This document shows, in pieces, positions 51,968-64,000 of a DNA stretch of 64,000 bases. Position 1 is the first letter of the stretch. Every line of letters begins with the position of its first letter. Under the pieces are notes generated by a model. It made no database searches. It worked only from the letters and a program-made list of their open reading frames with translations, and was not told the origin of the DNA. The DNA is from Apostichopus japonicus (taxonomy: Eukaryota; Echinodermata; Holothuroidea; Aspidochirotida; Stichopodidae). Location of the stretch: contig NC_092567.1 of the NCBI RefSeq assembly GCF_037975245.1, positions 19,474,876-19,538,875 of the forward strand. Reading direction: 5' to 3'. Made by a program: the position numbers and the translations under genes.

Positions 51968-53811
51968 ATGCAGAAGAAGGCGTCGCTAGCCACCATGACG
52001 CGGTAAGTTGAATCTCATAACATTGATTTTTTGTAATAAAATAGTTAAAATTTCTATTTTTGTCGGTCTTTCTGATAAATCTCCTTCATGATTAAAAGAA
52101 AGTGCCGTTAAATTTACCGTGAACTTGACTTTGTTACAGGAGAAAAATTGTACATTTTTGGTAAAATTGGCTAGACTACAATCTTTTCATTGATTTTAAA
52201 TTCGCGATTGGAAATGCACTAGTCTTCTCAATAATTAACGTATTAACATACGGCAAAACACAGTGTAATGTAATATAGATGTTAGGAATTTGTGTTGGCT
52301 CTGCGTGTACATGAAATGATGTACATTGCTTTAGTCCTTGGAAAACGTCCATGCCAAACTATAATGTACACACCTCATACAGCATAGTCATTATACTATA
52401 GCCCTGATATTGGAGCAGAAAATGCTCATCTCCTTGCAACTCATTATGCAAGCTCAGAAGATGAAGTGTAGCCTTGGAAAAATTAACTCGCACTAACAAC
52501 GGCAAAATAGCACCCTTTCTCCATGGTAAACTGTGGTATAATACCACAATTTGACTGGGGTATTTTGGTCATATGGATGCGGTTTACCATAGTTTTACCA
52601 TGGTACCATACCACAATTTTACCATGGTTTTTCATCATGGTTTTATCTCAAATTCACCCTATGTGTACTATGGCATTACTATAATTGTACCATAATTAAC
52701 CACAATTTTACCCTACAGCTCTTCCAAAGTTTTACCCTAATAGTTTTACCCTAATTGCACCACTGGCAGTTTTTTCCTACTTGTCCTAATCAGTACACCA
52801 CAAATTACATTCAATTTCACCATTGGTGTATTGTATCATAATTGGGCTAGTTGAAACATACAACAAAGCATCTCATACTGTATGTCATAATGTCGTATGT
52901 ATATTAGGGCATACTATTTTATATTGACCAGATTTGGGTAAATATGCGACAGTCAAATAATGCATGACAACAATATAAAGGTTACATAGTTTTACAGTAT
53001 ATGGTATGTATAGTTTTTGTCAAGTGAAATAAGGATGTGCCATAATTTTATTCTATAAGGCTACTGTGGCAAACTTACCTGTGTTACCCCAATTTAACCA
53101 TAGTTTACTGTTGTAAAACTATGGTACATTTTTGGCTGGGAGCATATATATAATATTTCTTATATCTTATATAGGGTGATATAATATTGTATTCATGTAC
53201 TTTCTACCTGTTGGACCAAACTTTCTTGCCATTCATGGACTTGCCTCTCATTTAAACATTCCGTCCTACTGCTTTACCTCAAGTCTTTTCATAGTGTTTA
53301 AAAGCTATGTTTTGTTGTCTTGTTACTATTTTGTAACAGTTTCACGTCTCAAAGTTTTATGTAATATAAACGAGAAATAAAGAGACCAACAAAAAGACAT
53401 TTTGTTGTCATTCTTAAAAAACGAAAGTTCTCCAGACTGATCAAAAGTCCCTCAAAGCTGACCTCATCGTGGTGTCAGAGTGGCAACTACTGTCTTTTCA
53501 GTGGGTGAAGTATATAGAGCTTCTTCTGGCTATTTTTAAGCCAAAATGCCCTCTCGGGTTTCAAATTTCATTGCCTGTTGTATAACCTGAATGTTTCCTA
53601 AAAACTAGTTATGCTTGAAAATAAACTTAATAAAAAGGCCCATGTCTCGATAACATCAGGGCTCTATAGGCTGATTACTAACAACCCCATGTACAATTTC
53701 AGGAGGGTGAATTTGAAGGGGCACTGGCAGGGCTTGGACACTTTGCAGTGGCAGGGCTTGCACTTGGAAGAGCACCAGCATGGGTCCATCTTCATGAGAG
53801 TCTCTAAATAA
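51968..53811 (+). CDS. Candidate two-exon small gene or lncRNA
   Basis: The first exon has ATG at 51968 and, in frame, a textbook Kozak start GCCACCATGACG (ATG at 51995). It ends at 52002 before the donor GTAAGT. A terminal exon starts at 53703 after TTTCAG, with a perfect TACTAAC branch point at 53675-53681. Joined, they encode 47 (or 38) residues ending IFMRVSK. The TAA stop lies inside the poly(A) signal AATAAA at 53807-53812. The peptide resembles nothing I know. The second exon is open in another frame as well and is partly an internal repeat (ggcagggcttg twice), so coding is doubtful. Confidence 0.35.
52515..53150. repeat. Cluster of 'TTTTACCATGG' repeats
   Basis: Dozens of direct and inverted variants of 'accatggtaaa', 'ttttaccat' and 'ccacaattt' fill this stretch. 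It probably represents a decayed DNA element rich in internal palindromes. The ends are not clean. Confidence 0.6.
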
Positions 53812-54030
53812 AATTATAGAAGGTGATAAATGTAAGCCATTGTTGAATGTCTGACTTCAGCTAGTAGTGTTTAAAGTACCGATTGTAACGATATGGTATT
53901 GCTTGCATGTATTGTTATGTGTGGATACCGGATATAGCAAATCGATGTATTGGCAGTGAATATTTCATGATCTCTAGGGGTCCTTATGCCCCTATCCACA
54001 CAGAAAAGTCATTTCACTGACATGAAAAAG

Positions 54031-54090
54031 TCCTCTTATCATTCGATATATGCATGGGGTTCCTCTTATCATTCGATATATGCATGGGGT
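54031..54090. repeat. Perfect 30-bp tandem duplication
   Basis: Positions 54031-54060 and 54061-54090 are identical ('tcctcttatcattcgatata' plus 'tgcatggggt'). The absence of any difference implies a recent event. Confidence 0.97.
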
Positions 54091-55302
54091 TCCATGATGT
54101 AAGCAATTCAATTCCGCTAGTTTTATCACGCTTAGTTATGGCATTTCGCGCAATACGTACCAACGTGTAACGAGACAGTCACCACTTTACTCGCAACCTG
54201 TATTCGTAACCTGTATTCGTGTGTGTATATAGTTGTCGTGAACTTGATTTTCGTTACAAGATGATTTGAAGAGAAATGCATATTAATTTGTGGTAAAGGA
54301 GTTTTTTTCAGCGAATATACCAGTTTTCAAAATTTGAAATGATGATAATCATGCCTCATGCCAAAGAAAGCATTTTTCTAAACAGTTCGAAAATGGTTAA
54401 TTTGCGTTCAGAAATTACGGCCGAAACTCCGTTTCCACTCCTTATTTGTGTCTTTTGTCCGTAATGATTGAATTAAACACCTTTCCTCCATCAAATTCAA
54501 CAATTACCTAACATATTATTGCTTAATGACTGAGAAATTGACCTTCGAATATGATAATTATTACCTAATTAAATATTAATGAGGAGTGACATCAGGAAAC
54601 CCCGTGCATATTCTACAAGAAAAGAAAGCACTTTTCGCACCGCTGGAGCCTGACTGTACCGTCCGGAAAACCCCTCGTTTGCGAAATTGTATGAATATGG
54701 TTTTGTTTCCTTCAATACACCCCAAACCAGGTGTTATTTATGAAAGTATTACAAGATAGAGTCTGGGAACAAGAAAATCACGTACTTGTGACATCCACAG
54801 TTTTGGAATATCGATGTAGTGTACATGTACGTAGAAAGAGTCAAATAATTTTACTTACCTACCGTGGCTCACAGCGGCCATCCAGGTTTTGCCTACACGT
54901 TGTAAAAGGCTCCATAGCACAGCTCCATGATATTGTCTATATAAGTCTAGCTATCTTAGATTTTGGTAACAGCTTGCCTGATGTGTTTTCAACGTGCTTT
55001 CATTGGAAAAGGGTCTCTTCTTTTACATTTTGAAAGTAAAAAAGTCCGTTGATCCTTGGAATGGCTATAAACAGTGTGTATGCTGGGAATGGGAGGGGGA
55101 AGGGGTCGGGGAGGGGAGTCACGGTTGTACGATTTATATTAAATTAAGAAAGCATCAGCATGTATGTAGTGATATCAAATTTGGCTAGCATGCCTGCCAG
55201 CTGTTTTCTCAAAATTGATACGCACATTTTATTCCGTCCCTCCGTCCAGGTGCTGACACATAGCGAAAACTACAGACCATTTTTGCGTTGGTAAATGGTG
55301 GA

Positions 55303-55541
55303 AATCGAGGTAATTCGTCCGTTTACACACCTTCCAATCGAGGTATCACCGACAATCGAGGAATACCTCGATTAGAAAAGTACTGGCGTGGCGCTATTTG
55401 TGATCCTTTAAATGCTAGGAAAGTGATTTTGGTTCAATTTGAAGTAGTACCTCGTTTGGCATCATGCCACCTTGTTTATATACATCTTTGTGTATACATG
55501 ACTACGGCGCGATTTCACACAAAAATGTCAGTACCTCGATT
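55303..55541. promoter_or_regulatory. Inverted array of AATCGAGGTA motifs
   Basis: Forward copies lie at 55303, 55336 and 55354 (the last ends AGGA). Reverse copies TACCTCGATT lie at 55364, 55448 (CGTTT variant) and 55532. All six fall within 240 bp, three in each direction, about 600 bp before the SET-recombinase ATG. They may be protein-binding sites. The surrounding sequence is richer in CpG than the rest of the region. Confidence 0.45.
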
Positions 55542-56146
55542 ACACGATGGACTGACGGCTGCGAGTCACTACATCGAATGGCGGGATCCCGCATGATTTC
55601 CTCGGTTTTGCGGTGGAAAACTGTCCCGTCGCAATACGGTGGTAAATATAAAATCACTTTTTTATTTAGTCAAAAATGTAATATGATCCTAATGTACCCG
55701 CTTGAATTCACTAATCGAAAAGCCATAGGGCCTAAGACTAGAGTTATGATTCGTGTTGACCATAGTCTAGGACTAAATGCCTAGGCCTATATATGTTGCT
55801 AGGCTATATATTTTAACAGCCATAACATAAGGTTAGGCTCTGCAATAACATGCAGTAGATGCAGTTTTGATAAGAGATAACAAGTGATCTCATCTGTGGT
55901 AGCCTATGAACTAATGCATGTGGGCCTAAGTTTGTATGGTCCTTAAAACCTATGTTGAAATAATTTAGCCCTTTCATTTTTTTTTTGCGCCTACGAGACT
56001 ATTGTTAGTTTTTTATTTATGCATTTACTTAACTTGCATTTAGGGGAATGCATTCAGCCAAATTTATTTCTTTCTTTTAATATGATAACTTAACTTAATC
56101 GTTAATTGTTAACATTGTCTCTGTGACATTGTTTTGTTCTTGATAG

Positions 56147-56255
56147 ATGGGGCGCAGAAAAAAACCTGATTATGCTGTAGCAGCTAGAGAATGGATAAAT
56201 TCACATAATGAAGACCCACCTGGCTTTTACATTAAAGAAGTGTCACCCACGATTG
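56147..56255 (+). CDS. SET-YR gene coding exon 1
   Basis: MGRRKKPDYAVAAREWINSH then NEDPPGFYIKEVSPTIG. The acceptor TTGATAG directly abuts the ATG, so at least one upstream non-coding exon is implied. Donor GTGAGC, phase 1. Confidence 0.8.
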
Positions 56256-59200
56256 GTGAGCATTACATGCGTACATTTGTTAACCACAATGACATTAATT
56301 TAAGAGAATATGTATCTAGTTTGTAATATTTATTGTCCTTAAACTGCCTACTGTCTAAACGTTTCTTTTTTATAAGTGTTTGTAGAAAAGTACACTGGGT
56401 CTACAATTGTATTACCTAGATAAAAGAAGAACTATATGGACATAGGTGGAAGATGCATGTTGTATATTTACTTGTTCTACTTACTACAGGTAAAGGGCTG
56501 TTTGCAGACAAAAGCTTCTCAACAGGCGAATTTTTGGTGGAATACAAGGGGAAGTTGGAAGCAGCATCTAACTATGAAAATGTTGATGACCTGACATATG
56601 TTTACTATTTTGTTGATGGGAGGAAGGAGTTGTGGTAAGTAGGTCAAATGTCTTGTAATACCTCTACTCATTCCACAGCAGCTTCTACTTGAATTGGATA
56701 TGGTGTGTACTAAGCAGCATAAAAATGTGTTATAGTATCAGGACCAAAGTAAATTTCCTTTCATATTATTAAATAAATGTTGTAGTTCTTTGAATAAACT
56801 CAATTTGTGTAGCATTCCCTTCCTCATACCACATCATCTTATCACCCAGTGCTGTAGGAATCAAGTCCTTTTGTTGTGGACTAGGACTCAGACCTGGGAT
56901 GTCTTGCAGTCAGACTTGTCTCGGACTTCAGATCCCCTGGACTAGGTCTCAAGTCTGAGTCGAGATGTATTCCACATTCTGTATGTCAGTATAGTAGGAG
57001 TTAACACATATGGCCACACAGTGGACCTTCACTAATTGATTGTATTATTGTAAGTGAAGAACTATGTAAACGATTGTGGTGCCAACTGAAGTTGTAGGTT
57101 TCATCAGTAGATGATTGCAAACAAATAATTTGACTTATTATTACCAGTGCATTCACAACATTTACTTTCTTTCAGTGTTGATGCAACTTTGAACCATTGC
57201 TTAGGGAGATATGCAAATGATGCATGGAAGAGTCCCAATGCCAAAGTATTAAAGATTCTCATAGATGGCACTGCACACCTTGTTTTGGTAGCAAGGTGTG
57301 ATATCCTTCCTGGTGATGAAATTCGATATGATTATGGTAGAAAAGATGCACCATGGAGACAAGTTAGACAACAGGTATGTAACTTGACATGCTACAATGA
57401 CTAACACTGTATACTTAAACATCCTTTTTATTTACTTTTGTACATTACTCATTCTTTTCAAACATGTAGGAATGTTTCTTGAGGAGACTTTTCAAACAAC
57501 AACAAAATTCCAAGTTTCCTGTTGAGTAGGATACTTCAGGTAAAAATGTTACAATTCATGTTCATTGTAGCATATTGCACATATATTGTGTGGCATGTAC
57601 TTCATTTTGCAGATCATAGCCACAAAATGGATGGTTTTTTGTGCATGTCTTTGTGATATTCTTTAGTTTTATGTCTTTTTCAATTTCATGGAATTTCTTA
57701 GCTTCTTAATTTAACTATATTCACTTTTTCTCCTACAGAGTTTAGGAGTTAATGAAACTGACAAACCTAGTTCATTAGGTTCTAATGGGGAACATACTGA
57801 GGAAAGTGATAGCACTGATAAAAATACTATTAGAAAACAAACTGCTACAGCAAGCAATTACCAAAAAGAAATACCTAGTACAACAGAAACATGTGAAAAT
57901 GAGAGTGTAAGTTTCAAAAGAGATACTGAAGAAGTGGTCAATGAATTGTTACTTTCTCTTGACAACACTTTATTTGGTAAAGCTGCTAAGGAGGCAACCT
58001 CAGATACATCTAGTGCAACACATACTAACGGGGAAGCAAGTGAGAATGGAGCTCAGACAGATAAAGCTAACAAGGTGGTGCATTCAAACACATCTAGTTC
58101 CAGTAAGAATGAAGCTCAGACTGAAAACAACAAGCTGGCTTACTCAGACACATCTAGTACACCACATGTTCTTAAAGAAGCTAGTATGACTGAAGCTCAG
58201 ACACACTCAGACATGCCCAGCTCAGCAGTTGCATCTAATAAGAAATCTAGTATAAATCAACCTGAGAGTGATAATGCTAGCAGGCAGACACAACGAGACA
58301 CAGGCAGTTCAACAATCACTTCTCATAGGGAATCAATTCCTAATGAAGCTCAGAACGATAAAGCTAAAAGTCAGACACAATCAGATACATATGTTTCGAC
58401 AATAACAAGTAGTTGTGAAGCTATTATGAGTGAAGTTCAAACACAAAAAGCTAATACCCAGACACAATCAGAAACTTCTAGTTTAGCAATTACTACCAAT
58501 AGCGAAGCTAGTATAAATGAAATCCAGACTGATAATGCTAGTAGGCAGACACAGCCAGACGCAGACAGTTCAACAATTGCTACAAATAGTAAAGCTACAA
58601 TGAGTGAAGTTCAGAAGGATAATGCTAAAAGGCAGACACAATTAGATGTATGTAGTTCCACAATTACAACTAGTTGTGAAGCAGGTATCAATGAAGTTCA
58701 GACACAATCAGAAACGTCCAGTTTAGCAATTAGTACTGATAGCAAAGCTAGTGTAAACGAAATCCAGACTGATAAAGCTACCAGGCAGACACTTCATACT
58801 TCCTTTGCAGAAAGCAATGCTCAAGATAAAATTGTTGTAAAAGATATTTTCAGGTTTGAGTTTATTCCGGAGAGTCCTGTAAGGCAGGCTGCATCATCGG
58901 TAATAGATATCAGTAACATTTCATCAACGTCCCGTGACTCAATTGACATTTCAAACAGCTCTCGATGGCTTCGTACCAAAACAAAGACTTGTACTTATGT
59001 TGAAACATCTAGTAGTGAAGACAGTGGCAGTGAATACAATGAATCAGACGATAGATACGAATCTGAGAGTGATTCCTCTGATACCTCTTATGTGATACCT
59101 GTCCAGAACAAAATTTCATCTTCTAAGCCTGTAAGTCCATCACCACAGGTCTTTTCTAACATTGTCTCATCAACTTCTAATTCAGGCAGTGAAGTCAATG

Positions 59201-62200
59201 AAGAAGGTAGTAAAGAGGAGCAAAATGTCTTTGTGAGGACAACTAATAATGAAGGTAGTAGGACGTGGGACAAAGTAGACTACTGCATCTTTTGTGAGGA
59301 GAGCAAGTCAAAACTATCCCAACATATTCAAACACAACACAAAAATGAATCTGAAGTCATTGATTGGATACAGACAAAAGACAACAAACTTAGGATACAA
59401 AAGTTGAAGAAAATGCGGAATATTGGGAATCATAGGCACAACTGTAAAGTTTTAAGAGAGGGCAAGGGGGAACTTATTGTAACATACAGGCCATCCCCAT
59501 CAGGTTATCCTGCAAAGCCAAGTGACTATGGCCCATGTCCTAACTGCTATGCTTACCTAGTCAAAAGAGAAATGTGGAAACACAGATGCCCTGAAAAAGT
59601 ACCACAAACTCAGAGGAGGAAAGTTATCCAGAGTAGTAATTTATTGCTACCTGCTACTGTGTCAACAGACATGTCACAGCATCTACAGCGGGTACTATCA
59701 TCTATGAAATCAGATTCAGTTGCTAGATGTATTAAAAGTGATGCCCTTATTGTTGAAGTTGCAAGCAAAGAATGTTTTAAGCTTGGACATAATTCTGAAC
59801 AAGATAGTTACATTAGAGAGAAACTTAGAGAACTGGGGAGACTAGTTTTACAGCTGAGAGAGACTTTTGGTGATGAAAATGCATCTTTGTTGGATTTTAT
59901 AAACCCTGAAAAATTTCAACAAGTCCTCAAGTCAGTTAGGACTATGTGCGGATTTAGTGACAGCTCTCACACATACATCAATCCAAGTCTGGCCCTGAAA
60001 GTAGGTCATACTTTGAAAAAAGTTTCCACTGTCGTGAAAGGCCAGGCATTAGAAAGAGGTGATGACATATTGTTTCAAAGAGCCAGTGGTTTTCTTGATC
60101 TGTGTGGGATTCGTTGGACTGAAGAAATATCAAGCCATGCTCTTCGTACACTTTATCAAAGGAAACGGAATAGTCCACAGCTTCTTCCGCTTACTTCTGA
60201 TATTGTCTGTTTAGCCAACTATACCAAAAGTGTGGCAGCTAAACAATTGTCAATTTTGCAAAACAAAGGCTTGTGTAAACAAGATTTGCATTCAGCATGG
60301 GTCAAACTAGCTGAAGCAACCCTGACAAGGGTTATCACTTTTAACAGACGTAGACAGGGTGAGGCATCAAAACTGAAATTAGTTGACTACAAAAGCTGCT
60401 CAATAGGTGCCAAAGAAACAGCATTAGAAGAAACATTAACAACATTTGAGAAAACTCTATGCAAGTCTTTGAGCCGTGTGGAAATTGTAGGTAAAAGAGG
60501 CAACACAGTTCCTGTCATTCTTACAAGTGATATGAGAACACAGATTGACATGCTTGTAGCAACAAGAGATCAAGCAGGCATAAGTGCTGACAATCCCTAT
60601 GTCTTTGCCAGAACATGTTATGGGTCACTGAGCTTCATTCGGGGGGCTGATTGCCTGAGAAAACTTTCTGAGACATCTGGAGCAGATAAGCCAGAAACAT
60701 TAAGATCTACACGTTTACGCAAACACATTGCTACAGTTTCTCAAATTCTACATCTTGATGAGAATGAATTAGAAGTACTTGCAAAATTCATGGGTCATGA
60801 TATCCGAACACATAGAGCCTACTATCGGTTGCCAGATGAAACAATGCAATTAGCCAAGATGACTAAGTTTCTGCTGAATCTAGAGAAGCCAGGTTCATTA
60901 ACAGAAATGAAAGGAAAATCTTGGAAGGACATGCAAGTCAGTGCAAATGAAGGTAAGTTTTTTTTTTTTTTAAATAATATATTGACAAAAGTTTCAATGT
61001 AAATTGCTTGAATATAGTTTATGTCTATTTAGGATGAGATATTAAATAAATGCAATCATAAATGTGATCAAACCATCTTGGTAGCTATTTTGCCTTAATG
61101 TTCATTGCCAGAAGGTTTCAGACAGAAGGTTTCAGACCTGTAAATCCAAACAGGATAAAGCTAGCACTAACAAAAAATTTAGTGGTATGCGAAACATGTA
61201 TGCAATTTGTTGGATTAAGAATATTTTTTATCATGAAGCGATTATGTGTGGCATTGCGAGATCAGGTCTGATATCACTAATCAGTTGGTCATGTACTGAT
61301 GCCAATGCATATTTCTATTCAGTTTGAACGTTTGGTAAAATCTAATTTGATGAAGCTGTATAGAATTGTATTTACAGTGACCAATCTCATAATGACTATG
61401 TGTTTTGTGATTTTATAGAAGTTGTAGAGGACCCTGGTGATGCTGATAGTAATGATGAATGTTCAGATGCAGATGTTGAGGATAATGCTGCAGCACAGGA
61501 ACTACAGGAACCAGAAGCAATGCTAGAAGAAACTGGTGAGTGTTTCTATTTTATACAACACCTAATTATATTCCGGCCATTTGATTGGTCAATTGCTCGT
61601 CGATTGCATGCAAAATCCGCTCTATTGCACTCTATGAAATAGAACCATGGGTTATACTTTTTTGATAGCACTTTTTTTCAATGGTAAGAGAGCAGAGAAA
61701 CCTGTCTTTCCAAAACAATCTGTTGCATGAGTGCATTTTACATCCAATTATATCCAAATTTGAAGGTGTTGTATAAAACAAATAATGCATGGTTTCCATT
61801 CGTGCAATAGTGCAAATATTTCAACTCATGAAATATTTGCACTATTGCACTCATAACCATTCATTATTTGTATAACAATGAATGCAAGTAAAGTCAATCT
61901 CATAACAAAGCAATATTCACATATGTAGTGTAGTGGGAATATGTAGTGGGAATGAAATGTTGTTAAAAGCAAGGTGATTACTTCCCCTTGTTTCCAATTA
62001 ATCAAATCATTTACACTTCTGATGGTTAGTATGTTAAAAATATTAATTTTAGAGATATGTTTGTGATTACAGATGATAATGCATTCAAGGTTCGCAGTAC
62101 TACAAGCTCTTCAAATGTGCCACAAAAGACTACAAAGAGGAAAGCCTGGAGCACGGATGAAAGGGACGCCATAATGAAGCATTTTTCAGGGCTGATCTTA

Positions 62201-62335
62201 CGGAACAAGCTTCCTGGCAAAACTGAGATTGAGAGTGTAATGGTAAAAGAGAAATCTCTTCATTCTAGGTCATGGAGGAACATTAAGGATTTCTGCAGAA
62301 ATTGTATTGTCTCAAAATCAAGGAAGCTGCATTGA
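56147..62335 (+). CDS. SET / zinc finger / tyrosine recombinase-like / SANT fusion protein
   Basis: Six exons (56147-56255, 56490-56634, 57176-57374, 57739-60952, 61419-61535, 62073-62335) join in phase to 1348 codons. Residues about 36-146 form a KMT5A-like SET domain: GKGLFADKSFSTGEFLVEY, ELCVDAT, GRYAND, DEIRYDYG. In the usual NHS motif the His is Asp here. Residues about 250-500 are 31-residue S/T/Q-rich repeats, followed by an acidic Ser-rich stretch. Zinc fingers lie at C667-C670-H680-H685 and C751-C754-H766-C768. A tyrosine-recombinase-like domain follows: R1023 (RQGE), K1070, TRLRKHIAT with R1145, MGHD with H1171, and HRAYYRLP with Y1179 or Y1180. The tail (about 1280-1340) is a SANT/Myb-like module. 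From memory, similar uncharacterised proteins with this domain set are numerous in fish. Whether this is an active element, a relic or a host gene is open. Confidence 0.88.
56490..56634 (+). CDS. SET-YR gene exon 2
   Basis: First half of the SET domain, GKGLFADKSFSTGEFLVEYK to GRKEL. Donor GTAAGT, phase 2; the next codon, Cys of CVDAT, is split. Confidence 0.92.
57176..57374 (+). CDS. SET-YR gene exon 3
   Basis: Second half of the SET domain: VDATLNHCLGRYANDAW, HLVLVARCDILPGDEIRYDY, then RQVRQQ. Acceptor TTTCAG, donor GTATGT. Confidence 0.93.
57470..57529 (+). CDS. Possible alternative last exon (SET-only isoform)
   Basis: After the acceptor ACATGTAG, 19 codons in the right phase for exon 3 (ECFLRRLFKQQQNSKFPVE) end in TAG. 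Use of this exon would give a 170-aa protein with only the SET domain. It could equally be chance. Confidence 0.3.
   Translation, partial: ECFLRRLFKQQQNSKFPVE
57739..60952 (+). CDS. SET-YR gene exon 4 (repeats, zinc fingers, recombinase domain)
   Basis: A single 3.2-kb exon covering residues 152-1222. It opens in frame before any ATG (SLGVNETDKPSSLGSN), after acceptor CTACAG, so it is not an independent gene. Donor GTAAGT. Confidence 0.93.
58030..58800 (+). repeat. In-frame 93-bp (31-aa) coding repeat
   Basis: About eight diverged units with the pattern NE-QTD-A-RQTQ-D-SST-T-SEA (for example INEIQTDNASRQTQ, MSEVQKDNAKRQTQ, VNEIQTDKATRQT). Rich in Ser, Thr and Gln, presumably disordered. Confidence 0.85.
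61419..61535 (+). CDS. SET-YR gene exon 5
   Basis: Acidic linker EVVEDPGDADSNDECSDADV to AMLEET. Acceptor TTTATAG, donor GTGAGT; phase 1 at both junctions. Confidence 0.82.
61546..61880. repeat. Nested inverted repeats, MITE-like
   Basis: A perfect 22-nt arm pair (61802-61823 and 61829-61850, loop ACTCA) sits in a longer imperfect palindrome with 'acaaataatg' facing 'cattatttgt'. A further 'ttttatacaacacc' at about 61549 is mirrored at about 61766. It starts 11 bp after the donor of SET-YR exon 5. Confidence 0.75.
62073..62335 (+). CDS. SET-YR gene terminal exon (SANT/Myb-like)
   Basis: TTKRKAWSTDERDAIMKHF and SWRNIKDFCRNCIVSKSRK, ending KLH and TGA. Tryptophan spacing and charge fit a SANT/Myb-like helix bundle. 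Acceptor GATTACAG. Confidence 0.88.
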
Positions 62336-62404
62336 GAGTGGAATATTGTTTTCTGACATGCAGTAGTGCAGCAACACATCGATGTCTTAAATGCAAATTG
62401 ATGC

Positions 62405-62410
62405 AATAAA
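62405..62410 (+). terminator. Poly(A) signal of SET-YR gene
   Basis: AATAAA 70 nt after the stop codon. Confidence 0.6.
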
Positions 62411-64000
62411 AGAGAAAAAACACAACATTCAGCAAATACTTTCTATCCTGGAACTATGTTTATTTTCCCTCACAGTGTTCTTTGAGTTTGGATTCTTTTT
62501 ACCTCTCATTGTTTAAGAAGTACCATTTGTTGTATAAGAAGCATTTTTTTAAAGTCACTTTTGGATTATTATGTTGTAGGGCAGTGACTTTGAAACTTTT
62601 AACAAATCCAATCTCTATGTGTACTGTACTCATAGTCTTGTCATGTGCATGAGCTCAACTCTTTACTGTGAGTACACCCTGTTTAATTCTTTCCAAAGTT
62701 ACTTCAACATGGTTTTAACTTGAGATCAGAACATTGCTACCAATTTAAAAAAAAAAAAATCCTCAAAGTAATTTTCAATTGGCGTTAAAAATGATTTATA
62801 TTCTTTGAATCTTTGTAGTAACAGTTGAATATTTTGAACAAAATGTTCTGGTCTATTGATAATAGTTTATCACACCTGATGTTGTGTTCTTGCAGAACCT
62901 CAATCATTGTGTAGCGTATAGCATATGTTTGTCAGTTTCAAGGACTTAAACTTCTTTCTAGACCTATTTTGTGCATTATTCATGCAGGGTCAGTTATAAC
63001 AGTGTTCATTCCTATTTACTTCACATGTTGTCATTTGTTACATAAGTGGTGTATTTTAGCCTTCAAAAAAGAAGTATGTTTTTGTATAGATTGTAAAAGT
63101 ATTAAGGAAGGTATATTTGATTTTGAGAAAACGTACAAGATTATCAGTAAGTATAAAGGGGCTTCTCAGTGACCAAGACCTGCCCTCCCATGAAATATGT
63201 ACTTTACTTGTCTGATAAAACAGATTCTTTTTAGTCACCATGTTCTACAAAGTTTGATATAAAGGGCTCCTTTTTCATCACCAAAAAATAGCTAAAACTG
63301 GCAAGAAGGTATGGAACAGACTTGAAGAAGAAATGTTAGTGTTTATTCTAACCTACCTCTCATCACTTAATCTACTCTTTAATTAGTCTCCTTTTTATAT
63401 TTTAACACGTTATACCACTTGTTTTATTGTTCATTTTAGAGAAAACATGTTTGTGTTTGAGTCACCTTTATGTTCGATCTTCTTTCTTTTCTATCGTAGT
63501 AAACACTAAAGCAAACTTCAAGGTTCAGTGGAGTACAACCAATACTTATCTGTCCCTCCTAAACATAATATATGGCAATACAATTTTTCATGGTATAAGA
63601 AATGCACTGATTCCTCGATTTGATGTTATGATAGGCTCGATAGCTAGTCAAGTGTATATGCTATTCAATAGTCAGTACTTCCTTGGATGGTATATGGACT
63701 TCTGAAGTTTCATCAATGAAAAATATTCCATGTTTCGGTTGTATTAGGAGTACATTGATTACTATATTCATGAACCCAAATGAAGAGTTTTTCTCGATTG
63801 TCGGGTGAATTTCTCAAGTTTACACACTGTTTAAATTATGACAGATACATATAGGTTAGCCGAAATAGTGTAAGCATTGAGTCGCATGTATATGGGTATA
63901 TCTATTATATCATCCATTCGTGTATGCTCCTCTGAATACAAACTGCTGTCCGACAAATTAGCCCCATGTCCGTTGACATAAGAAATACCTAGACTCCTCG
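62411..64000. other. Intergenic, no gene recognised
   Basis: AT-rich sequence after the SET-YR gene. Open frames at 62969 and 63427 show no domain. A single CCTCGATT near 63614 resembles the motif array at 55303. Confidence 0.5.

Follow-up and report, generated by a model that had tools for sequence, protein, structure and literature searches.

KDZ elements with TET/JBP genes are examples of mobile elements that carry epigenetic enzymes, the methyltransferase domain of DIRS elements is of the DNA-methylase type, and SETMAR (Metnase) is a domesticated single gene whose transposon enzyme is of the DDE/D kind. Histone methylation is generally regarded as something that transposons undergo. We analyze here a 64,000-nucleotide stretch of the Apostichopus japonicus genome (NC_092567.1, positions 19,474,876 to 19,538,875; hereafter “the window”, whose coordinates are used throughout), in which the gene at 56147-62335 encodes a recombinase that itself carries a methyltransferase-like domain. 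We regard it, with high confidence, as the recombinase gene of an animal tyrosine recombinase (YR) DNA transposon with a KMT5A-like SET domain in the same protein; a mechanism is proposed in the last section. This raises the question of why a mobile element would bring its own chromatin-modifying enzyme, and makes it directly testable whether mobile elements write chromatin marks.

As a DNA element with a YR and no reverse transcriptase, the window element resembles Cryptons (CryptonA/I), for which movement as a circle has been proposed and non-autonomous derivatives are also known (PMC3212892). One published definition makes the YR the only protein domain of a Crypton (PMC4157794), although Cryptons with extra domains have also been reported, and Cryptons are described as lacking both terminal inverted repeats and long direct repeats, the animal ones as being without terminal repeats or a C-terminal domain (PMC3212892). 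The window element, in contrast, adds a SET domain, zinc fingers, and a homeodomain-like tail in the same protein, and has imperfect inverted arms (20-28 aligned bp across its subfamilies), a sub-terminal array, and TG-tract flanks. Because it encodes more than a YR and has inverted arms, it falls outside the Cryptons as strictly described in PMC3212892 and PMC4157794, a separation that follows these published descriptions rather than YR phylogeny. The DIRS group likewise consists of YR elements, and YR retrotransposons are described as sometimes encoding a methyltransferase domain (PMC4157794), whereas here, judged by ORF length, there is no room for a reverse transcriptase and the SET domain is a protein-lysine methyltransferase fold within the YR protein. 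Starships, with their DUF3435 captains, are also large eukaryotic elements with a YR. A Pfam scan of 52 homologues gave matches to 7 families, with neither DUF3435 nor DUF3504 among them, although absence there is no proof. The nearest counterpart of the fusion is SETMAR, in which a SET domain is described as joined to an enzyme of transposon origin with affinity for transposon ends (PMC4593633, PMC8327481), but that host gene carries a mariner-kind transposase (PMC2200798), whereas here a KMT5A-type SET domain is joined to a YR in a multi-copy element with ends. No description of a SET-YR transposon was found by title or start of abstract among open-licence PMC papers; Repbase and Dfam, outside this search, may hold one.

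Architecture of the gene and its protein

Six exons, which a first-pass annotation made from the letters of the sequence had read as splicing in phase, have GT/AG borders throughout and do join in phase, into a predicted protein of 1,348 amino acids (aa) with a single terminal stop. From N to C terminus, this protein consists of a KMT5A-type SET domain, a linker, two zinc fingers, the YR, and a homeodomain-like tail:

56147..56255, + strand: exon 1, start of the SET part (splice model)
56490..56634, + strand: exon 2, SET domain (splice model, Pfam)
57176..57374, + strand: exon 3, SET domain with CVDAT, GRYAND, and YDYG (splice model, PDB sequence and Pfam matches)
57739..60952, + strand: exon 4, low-complexity linker, two zinc fingers, and tyrosine recombinase (splice model)
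59284..59340, + strand: C2H2 zinc finger 1 (conserved columns C19, C22, H32, H37)
59536..59589, + strand: zinc finger 2, C-C-H-C (conserved columns C103, C106, H118, C120)
59722..60864, + strand: tyrosine recombinase core-binding and catalytic region, with R375, K422, R497, H523, and Y532 (alignment, predicted fold)
61419..61535, + strand: exon 5, acidic linker (splice model)
62073..62335, + strand: exon 6, homeodomain-like tail and stop (splice model, fold prediction)

The KMT5A-type SET domain read in the first-pass annotation is borne out by a Pfam match (PF00856, E 2.7e-12) and by its closest PDB sequences, which are those of KMT5A/SETD8 (PR-Set7; ~1e-15) and occupy the top 14 of 36 places. 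Compared to locus L007, presumed from its motif to be the host KMT5A of this genome (NHSKTGN), the element forms differ at the NH motif, where they read NHG, NHA, NDD, ND, or similar, and their substrate or activity may thus have shifted relative to KMT5A. The YxYG tyrosines are kept in 19 of 20 aligned SET domains, the exception being that of Cyprinodon (YDSG). Both zinc fingers, which had also been recognized in the first reading, are Cys/His quartets kept across the homologue alignment (52 rows).

The boxes on which the recombinase assignment was originally based (RQGE, LRKHIAT, MGHD, and HRAYY) are all present in the window protein, and R375, K422, R497, H523, and Y532, numbered along the translation of 59230-60954, are invariant or at least 90% conserved among the 52 aligned homologues. 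Across the window protein and 60 SET-bearing proteins (61 rows), the lysine is found in 60 rows, the arginine, histidine, and tyrosine in all 61, and an FNRxRxG pattern in 59, while the histidine of the HxxR position is replaced by Thr in the window protein and by Ile in 9 rows. Neither a Pfam scan of the 3.2-kb exon nor a PDB search by sequence with the YR returned a YR match, and Phage_integrase was matched in Pfam by 5 of the 52 homologues (E up to 0.01). A fold comparison of the predicted structure, the check proposed along with the original assignment, did match XerH, Cre, lambda Int, and others. Hence, the identity of this domain is visible through its homologues and fold comparison, not through sequence scans of the window protein: the YR catalytic residues are all kept, and the YR fold is that of a predicted model only.

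For the C-terminal tail, initially described as SANT-like, the prediction is a three-helix, homeodomain-like fold with weak matches. A fold search gave no match at E 0.001, its best rows being homeodomains (E 0.4-4), a profile comparison to PDB sequences yielded three entries at E 0.36-0.91, including a Myb protein, and a Pfam scan of the tail gave no SANT match. Given these weak matches, we label the tail homeodomain-like only; a SANT-like fold is plausible from the three predicted helices, but is not specifically indicated. One protein record listed at 100% identity (P0121) was considered as a transcript of the gene and set aside, since its sequence runs into an intron and provides no RNA evidence.

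Coupling of the SET domain and the recombinase

At four loci (L010, L011, L013, and L014), the C-terminal half of the SET domain (GRLVNH..YDYG) and the YR lie in a single unspliced open reading frame (ORF) of 951-1,498 aa, so that the fusion does not depend on predicted splicing alone. At another (L012), the ORF is 1,336 aa long and ends within the YR, a region in which one TGA was counted. Scanning the genome (671.6 Mb, 35 contigs) yielded at least 77 YR matches and at least 110 SET matches, both lower bounds. Among the YR matches listed, 59 of 77 have a SET match at most 40 kb upstream on the same strand, against 1 downstream on the same strand, 0 upstream on the opposite strand, and 1 downstream on the opposite strand. 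Among the 18 YR matches without a SET match are the window copy and the two relatives nearest to it, whose SET exons exist in the DNA. In protein databases, 60 of the 287 YR proteins listed, a set that includes many single-exon ORFs from raw contigs, have a SET domain, and it is N-terminal in all 60. These SET-YR proteins span 884-1,660 aa, and their record names assign them to sea cucumbers, sea urchins, starfish (Acanthaster, Patiria), the mollusc Solemya, and many teleosts.

Distances between SET domains correlate with distances between YRs (Mantel r 0.97, p 0.0001, 20 rows), a correlation to which host history common to both domains contributes. It was calculated for the window protein and 19 of 28 proteins, with 9 isoforms or near-duplicates excluded and near-identical pairs of Solea, Pimephales, and Carassius remaining. 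When presence of a SET domain was used as a label on the YR tree, 12 changes were obtained and 39 of 500 shuffles were as low, hence the tree neither dates nor counts the fusion. Some of the rows labeled as having no SET domain are incomplete models, such as P0160, whose YR is identical to that of the SET-bearing P0162, or P0134, which by eye starts inside the SET domain; others, e.g. from Danio, carry a different N-terminus.

Copies, ends, and insertion sites of the element

The gene lies within a dispersed element that reaches about 1.5 kb past the window end and whose limits and terminal features are as follows:

55284..64000, + strand: transposon copy, running past the window end to window-equivalent 65546 (C7:19540421), 10,263 bp in total (copy comparison)
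55284..55317, no strand: left terminal arm, 18 of 22 aligned bases matching the reverse complement of the right end (end alignment)
55303..55541, no strand: left sub-terminal array, 6 copies of AATCGAGGTA with at most 1 mismatch (motif count)
63611..64000, no strand: first part of the right sub-terminal array, whose 11 copies lie in the final 1.95 kb of the element and mostly past the window end (motif count)

The copy C17a (C17:29678600-29696400), which has a 615-bp insert, is homologous to the window element from 55284 to position 65563. The right end of the element was compared with this copy, and is also present in the copies on C11 and C19. The left limit is supported by C17b (C17:21792300-21794800) and, in a genome search with window 53000-63500, position 55284 recurs at five other places, namely two on C17 and one each on C19, C9 (one base earlier), and C11. 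Searches for the right end of C17b and for the left end of the C14 copy found neither, and X16 has its left end outside the stretch examined. The C11 and C19 copies have different flanks and one common internal deletion, with 57213 joined to 61205, which removes the recombinase exon and most of exon 3. This deletion derivative spread after losing its recombinase, and was presumably moved in trans. Apart from the gene, the window element contains no second stop-to-stop ORF above 113 aa, which leaves no room for a reverse transcriptase as judged by ORF length without a domain scan.

Several pairs of YR matches in the genome are near-identical. Between the window copy and C17a, introns differ at 39 of 2,124 sites and the three SET exons at 2 of 453, both synonymous, while the counts of synonymous/non-synonymous differences are 6/5 in the zinc fingers and YR, 7/16 in the linker, and 1/5 in the tail; in C17a, a frameshift disrupts the linker and a stop precedes the tail. 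For the zinc fingers and YR of other pairs, these counts are 4/2 for L010/L011 (p 0.022), 3/1 for L011/L012 (p 0.033), 0/3 for L010/L012, and 5/36 for L013/L014, the latter probably reflecting a shifted reading at the end. The SET segment shows zero differences in all four of these pairs.

The 10-mer AATCGAGGTA occurs 17 times in the element (at most 1 mismatch), with 6 copies within 260 bp of the left end, 11 within 1,950 bp of the right end, and none in the 8 kb between, compared to a mean of 0.37 and a maximum of 2 copies in 30 Markov resamplings. Other delimited subfamilies, X3 (C3:10802432-10813181, 10,750 bp) and X8 (C8, 16,841 bp), have different left-end motifs, of the TGGGGATA type and the CGCGGACG type (motifs picked by inspection), at nearly equal spacing (20/53/71 in the window element, 18/51/69 in X3, and 21/54/72 in X8). 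This likeness is confined to the left end: most further copies of the X3 motif belong to a tandem array that lies 2.8-4.3 kb inward, and just three exact copies of the X8 motif exist. Further subfamilies are represented by L010-L012, L015-L016, and L017-L018. A degenerate motif (AAT[CT]GNGG) was also tried, and was less clean than the subfamily motifs. The inverted arms match at 18 of 22 aligned positions in the window element, 27 of 28 in X3, and 16 of 20 in X8. Equally good matches arose in 1, 0, and 1 of 2,000 shuffles, respectively, while 2,000 interior pairs produced 0, 0, and 8. YR sites are described as two inverted arms around a short core (PMC3212892).

At the right edge, TATG followed by a TG-rich tract was found in 10 of the 10 copies located, and at the left edge a preceding TG tract in 8 of 10, the exceptions being the window and C9 copies (this set excludes a truncated C12 copy, and not all members are independent, the X8-type C8 and C19 copies having a partly common flanking repeat). 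By comparison, 42 of 127,972 window 14-mers (0.03%) reach the same TG level. Several copies sit within a repeat family carrying a TG tract, while the C11 and C19 deletion copies and the C14 copy are, by eye, located in other DNA, so that what the insertion sites have in common seems to be the TG tract and not a particular repeat family. A search for empty sites, as suggested in the first-pass annotation, was based on the joined flanks of X3: all 40 scored matches, from 2,947 first-look candidates, span the junction in a single alignment, hence uninterrupted copies of the X3 target repeat exist with the TG tract intact.

Additional repeats were observed in and around these copies. An abundant landing repeat that begins near GGTTCCTTGC and includes a TG tract is found in the flanks of the C17a, C17b, C3, C16, and C8 copies, and a different repeat, present at dozens of places with 74-86% identity, occupies window 53000-54658 just left of the element. 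The element bodies at L013, L014, L017, L019, and L020 contain tandem arrays with periods of ~178, 490, 210, and 1,070 bp, and the array units at L013 and L014 repeat the subfamily motif. Among the YR matches listed, 17 of 77 are on C17 (binomial p 9e-7) and 13 of 77 on C16.

Competing explanations and a possible role for the SET domain

The first-pass annotation had hesitated between a mobile element and a domesticated Crypton-like gene, i.e. a host gene in which recombinase-derived DNA binding and the SET domain would have been kept for host regulation. Domesticated YR genes are known in animals (PMC3212892), and the intact reading frame of this spliced gene, together with some indication of purifying selection in comparison to one relative, could be read in this way. 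However, the same left end at five other places, the internal deletion common to two loci, the at least 77 YR matches with several near-identical pairs, and the terminal arms and array all contradict domestication, and the catalytic residues are kept here, whereas DUF3504 genes are described as having lost the tyrosine (PMC3212892). We thus consider a host gene very improbable: dispersed copies with a sharp common left end, terminal structures, a deletion found at two loci, TG-tract flanks, and uninterrupted copies of the target repeat support a mobile element. Slightly less probable still is that the copies arose by segmental duplication, or represent a YR retroelement of the DIRS/Ngaro kind. 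Ngaro elements do exist in sea urchin and zebrafish (PMC4157794), but the C17a copy retains introns and the ORF lengths leave no space for a reverse transcriptase, while copies that start at the same base in unrelated flanks argue against segmental duplication.

The SET domain leaves more room for doubt, as it could be a passenger or a second gene making a separate protein, or an enzymatically dead binding module. Two observations weigh on this side, against an active enzyme within the recombinase protein: the change from NH to ND in the SET motif, and an exon-like piece at ~57470-57540, outside the in-phase model and conserved between two copies, which by eye contains a TAG in the frame of exon 3 and may act as an alternative exon that terminates a product with the SET domain only. 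Conversely, the unspliced ORFs combining the C-terminal half of the SET domain with the YR, the same order in 60 of 60 two-domain proteins, the YxYG tyrosines kept in 19 of 20 sequences, and the divergence of the SET domain together with the YR all argue against a passenger, and overall we find this alternative unlikely.

For a YR DNA transposon with the SET domain in its recombinase, the following mechanism can be proposed. The zinc fingers, YR, and tail would bind the inverted terminal arms and sub-terminal 10-mers, and the YR would recombine the TG dinucleotides at both element edges. In the circle released in this way, the junction of arm, TG core, and inverted arm would resemble a lox/dif-type site. 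This circle would then recombine into TG microsatellites, which would supply the same core, and copies without a recombinase would be mobilised in trans. As a component of this machinery, the SET domain would travel with the YR and would probably methylate a lysine, either H4K20 like KMT5A or another, on chromatin at the element or its target. KMT5A is described as performing H4K20 monomethylation, with roles in replication and the DNA damage response (PMC5034662, PMC8897848), and a transposon could gain from either role, which is the reason for reading the SET domain in terms of a lysine mark. Tentatively, an old, Bilateria-wide lineage of YR transposons may have captured a KMT5A-type methyltransferase and kept it because it places H4K20me1, or a similar lysine mark, at the element or its TG-repeat targets, which would couple transposition to replication licensing or chromatin state. 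If true, this would be a recombinase editing chromatin where it cuts. The defined ends, TG-tract target, and deletion copies provide parts for an assay, and a eukaryotic YR integrating at simple repeats could serve as a tool.

SET-YR genes can also inflate counts of KMT5A-like host genes, some being deposited under KMT5A or other host names. Specifically, P0137, P0171, P0170, P0233, and P0240 are deposited as KMT5A-B, KMT5A-A, PHD finger 11, PAK 1, or NCK2a, and are probably mis-named or chimeric models. Finally, three SET matches on C13 (~9229189, 9269216, and 9309243, one of them in L021) are spaced exactly 40,027 bp apart, and represent either a 40-kb unit repeated three times in tandem or an artefact of the assembly.

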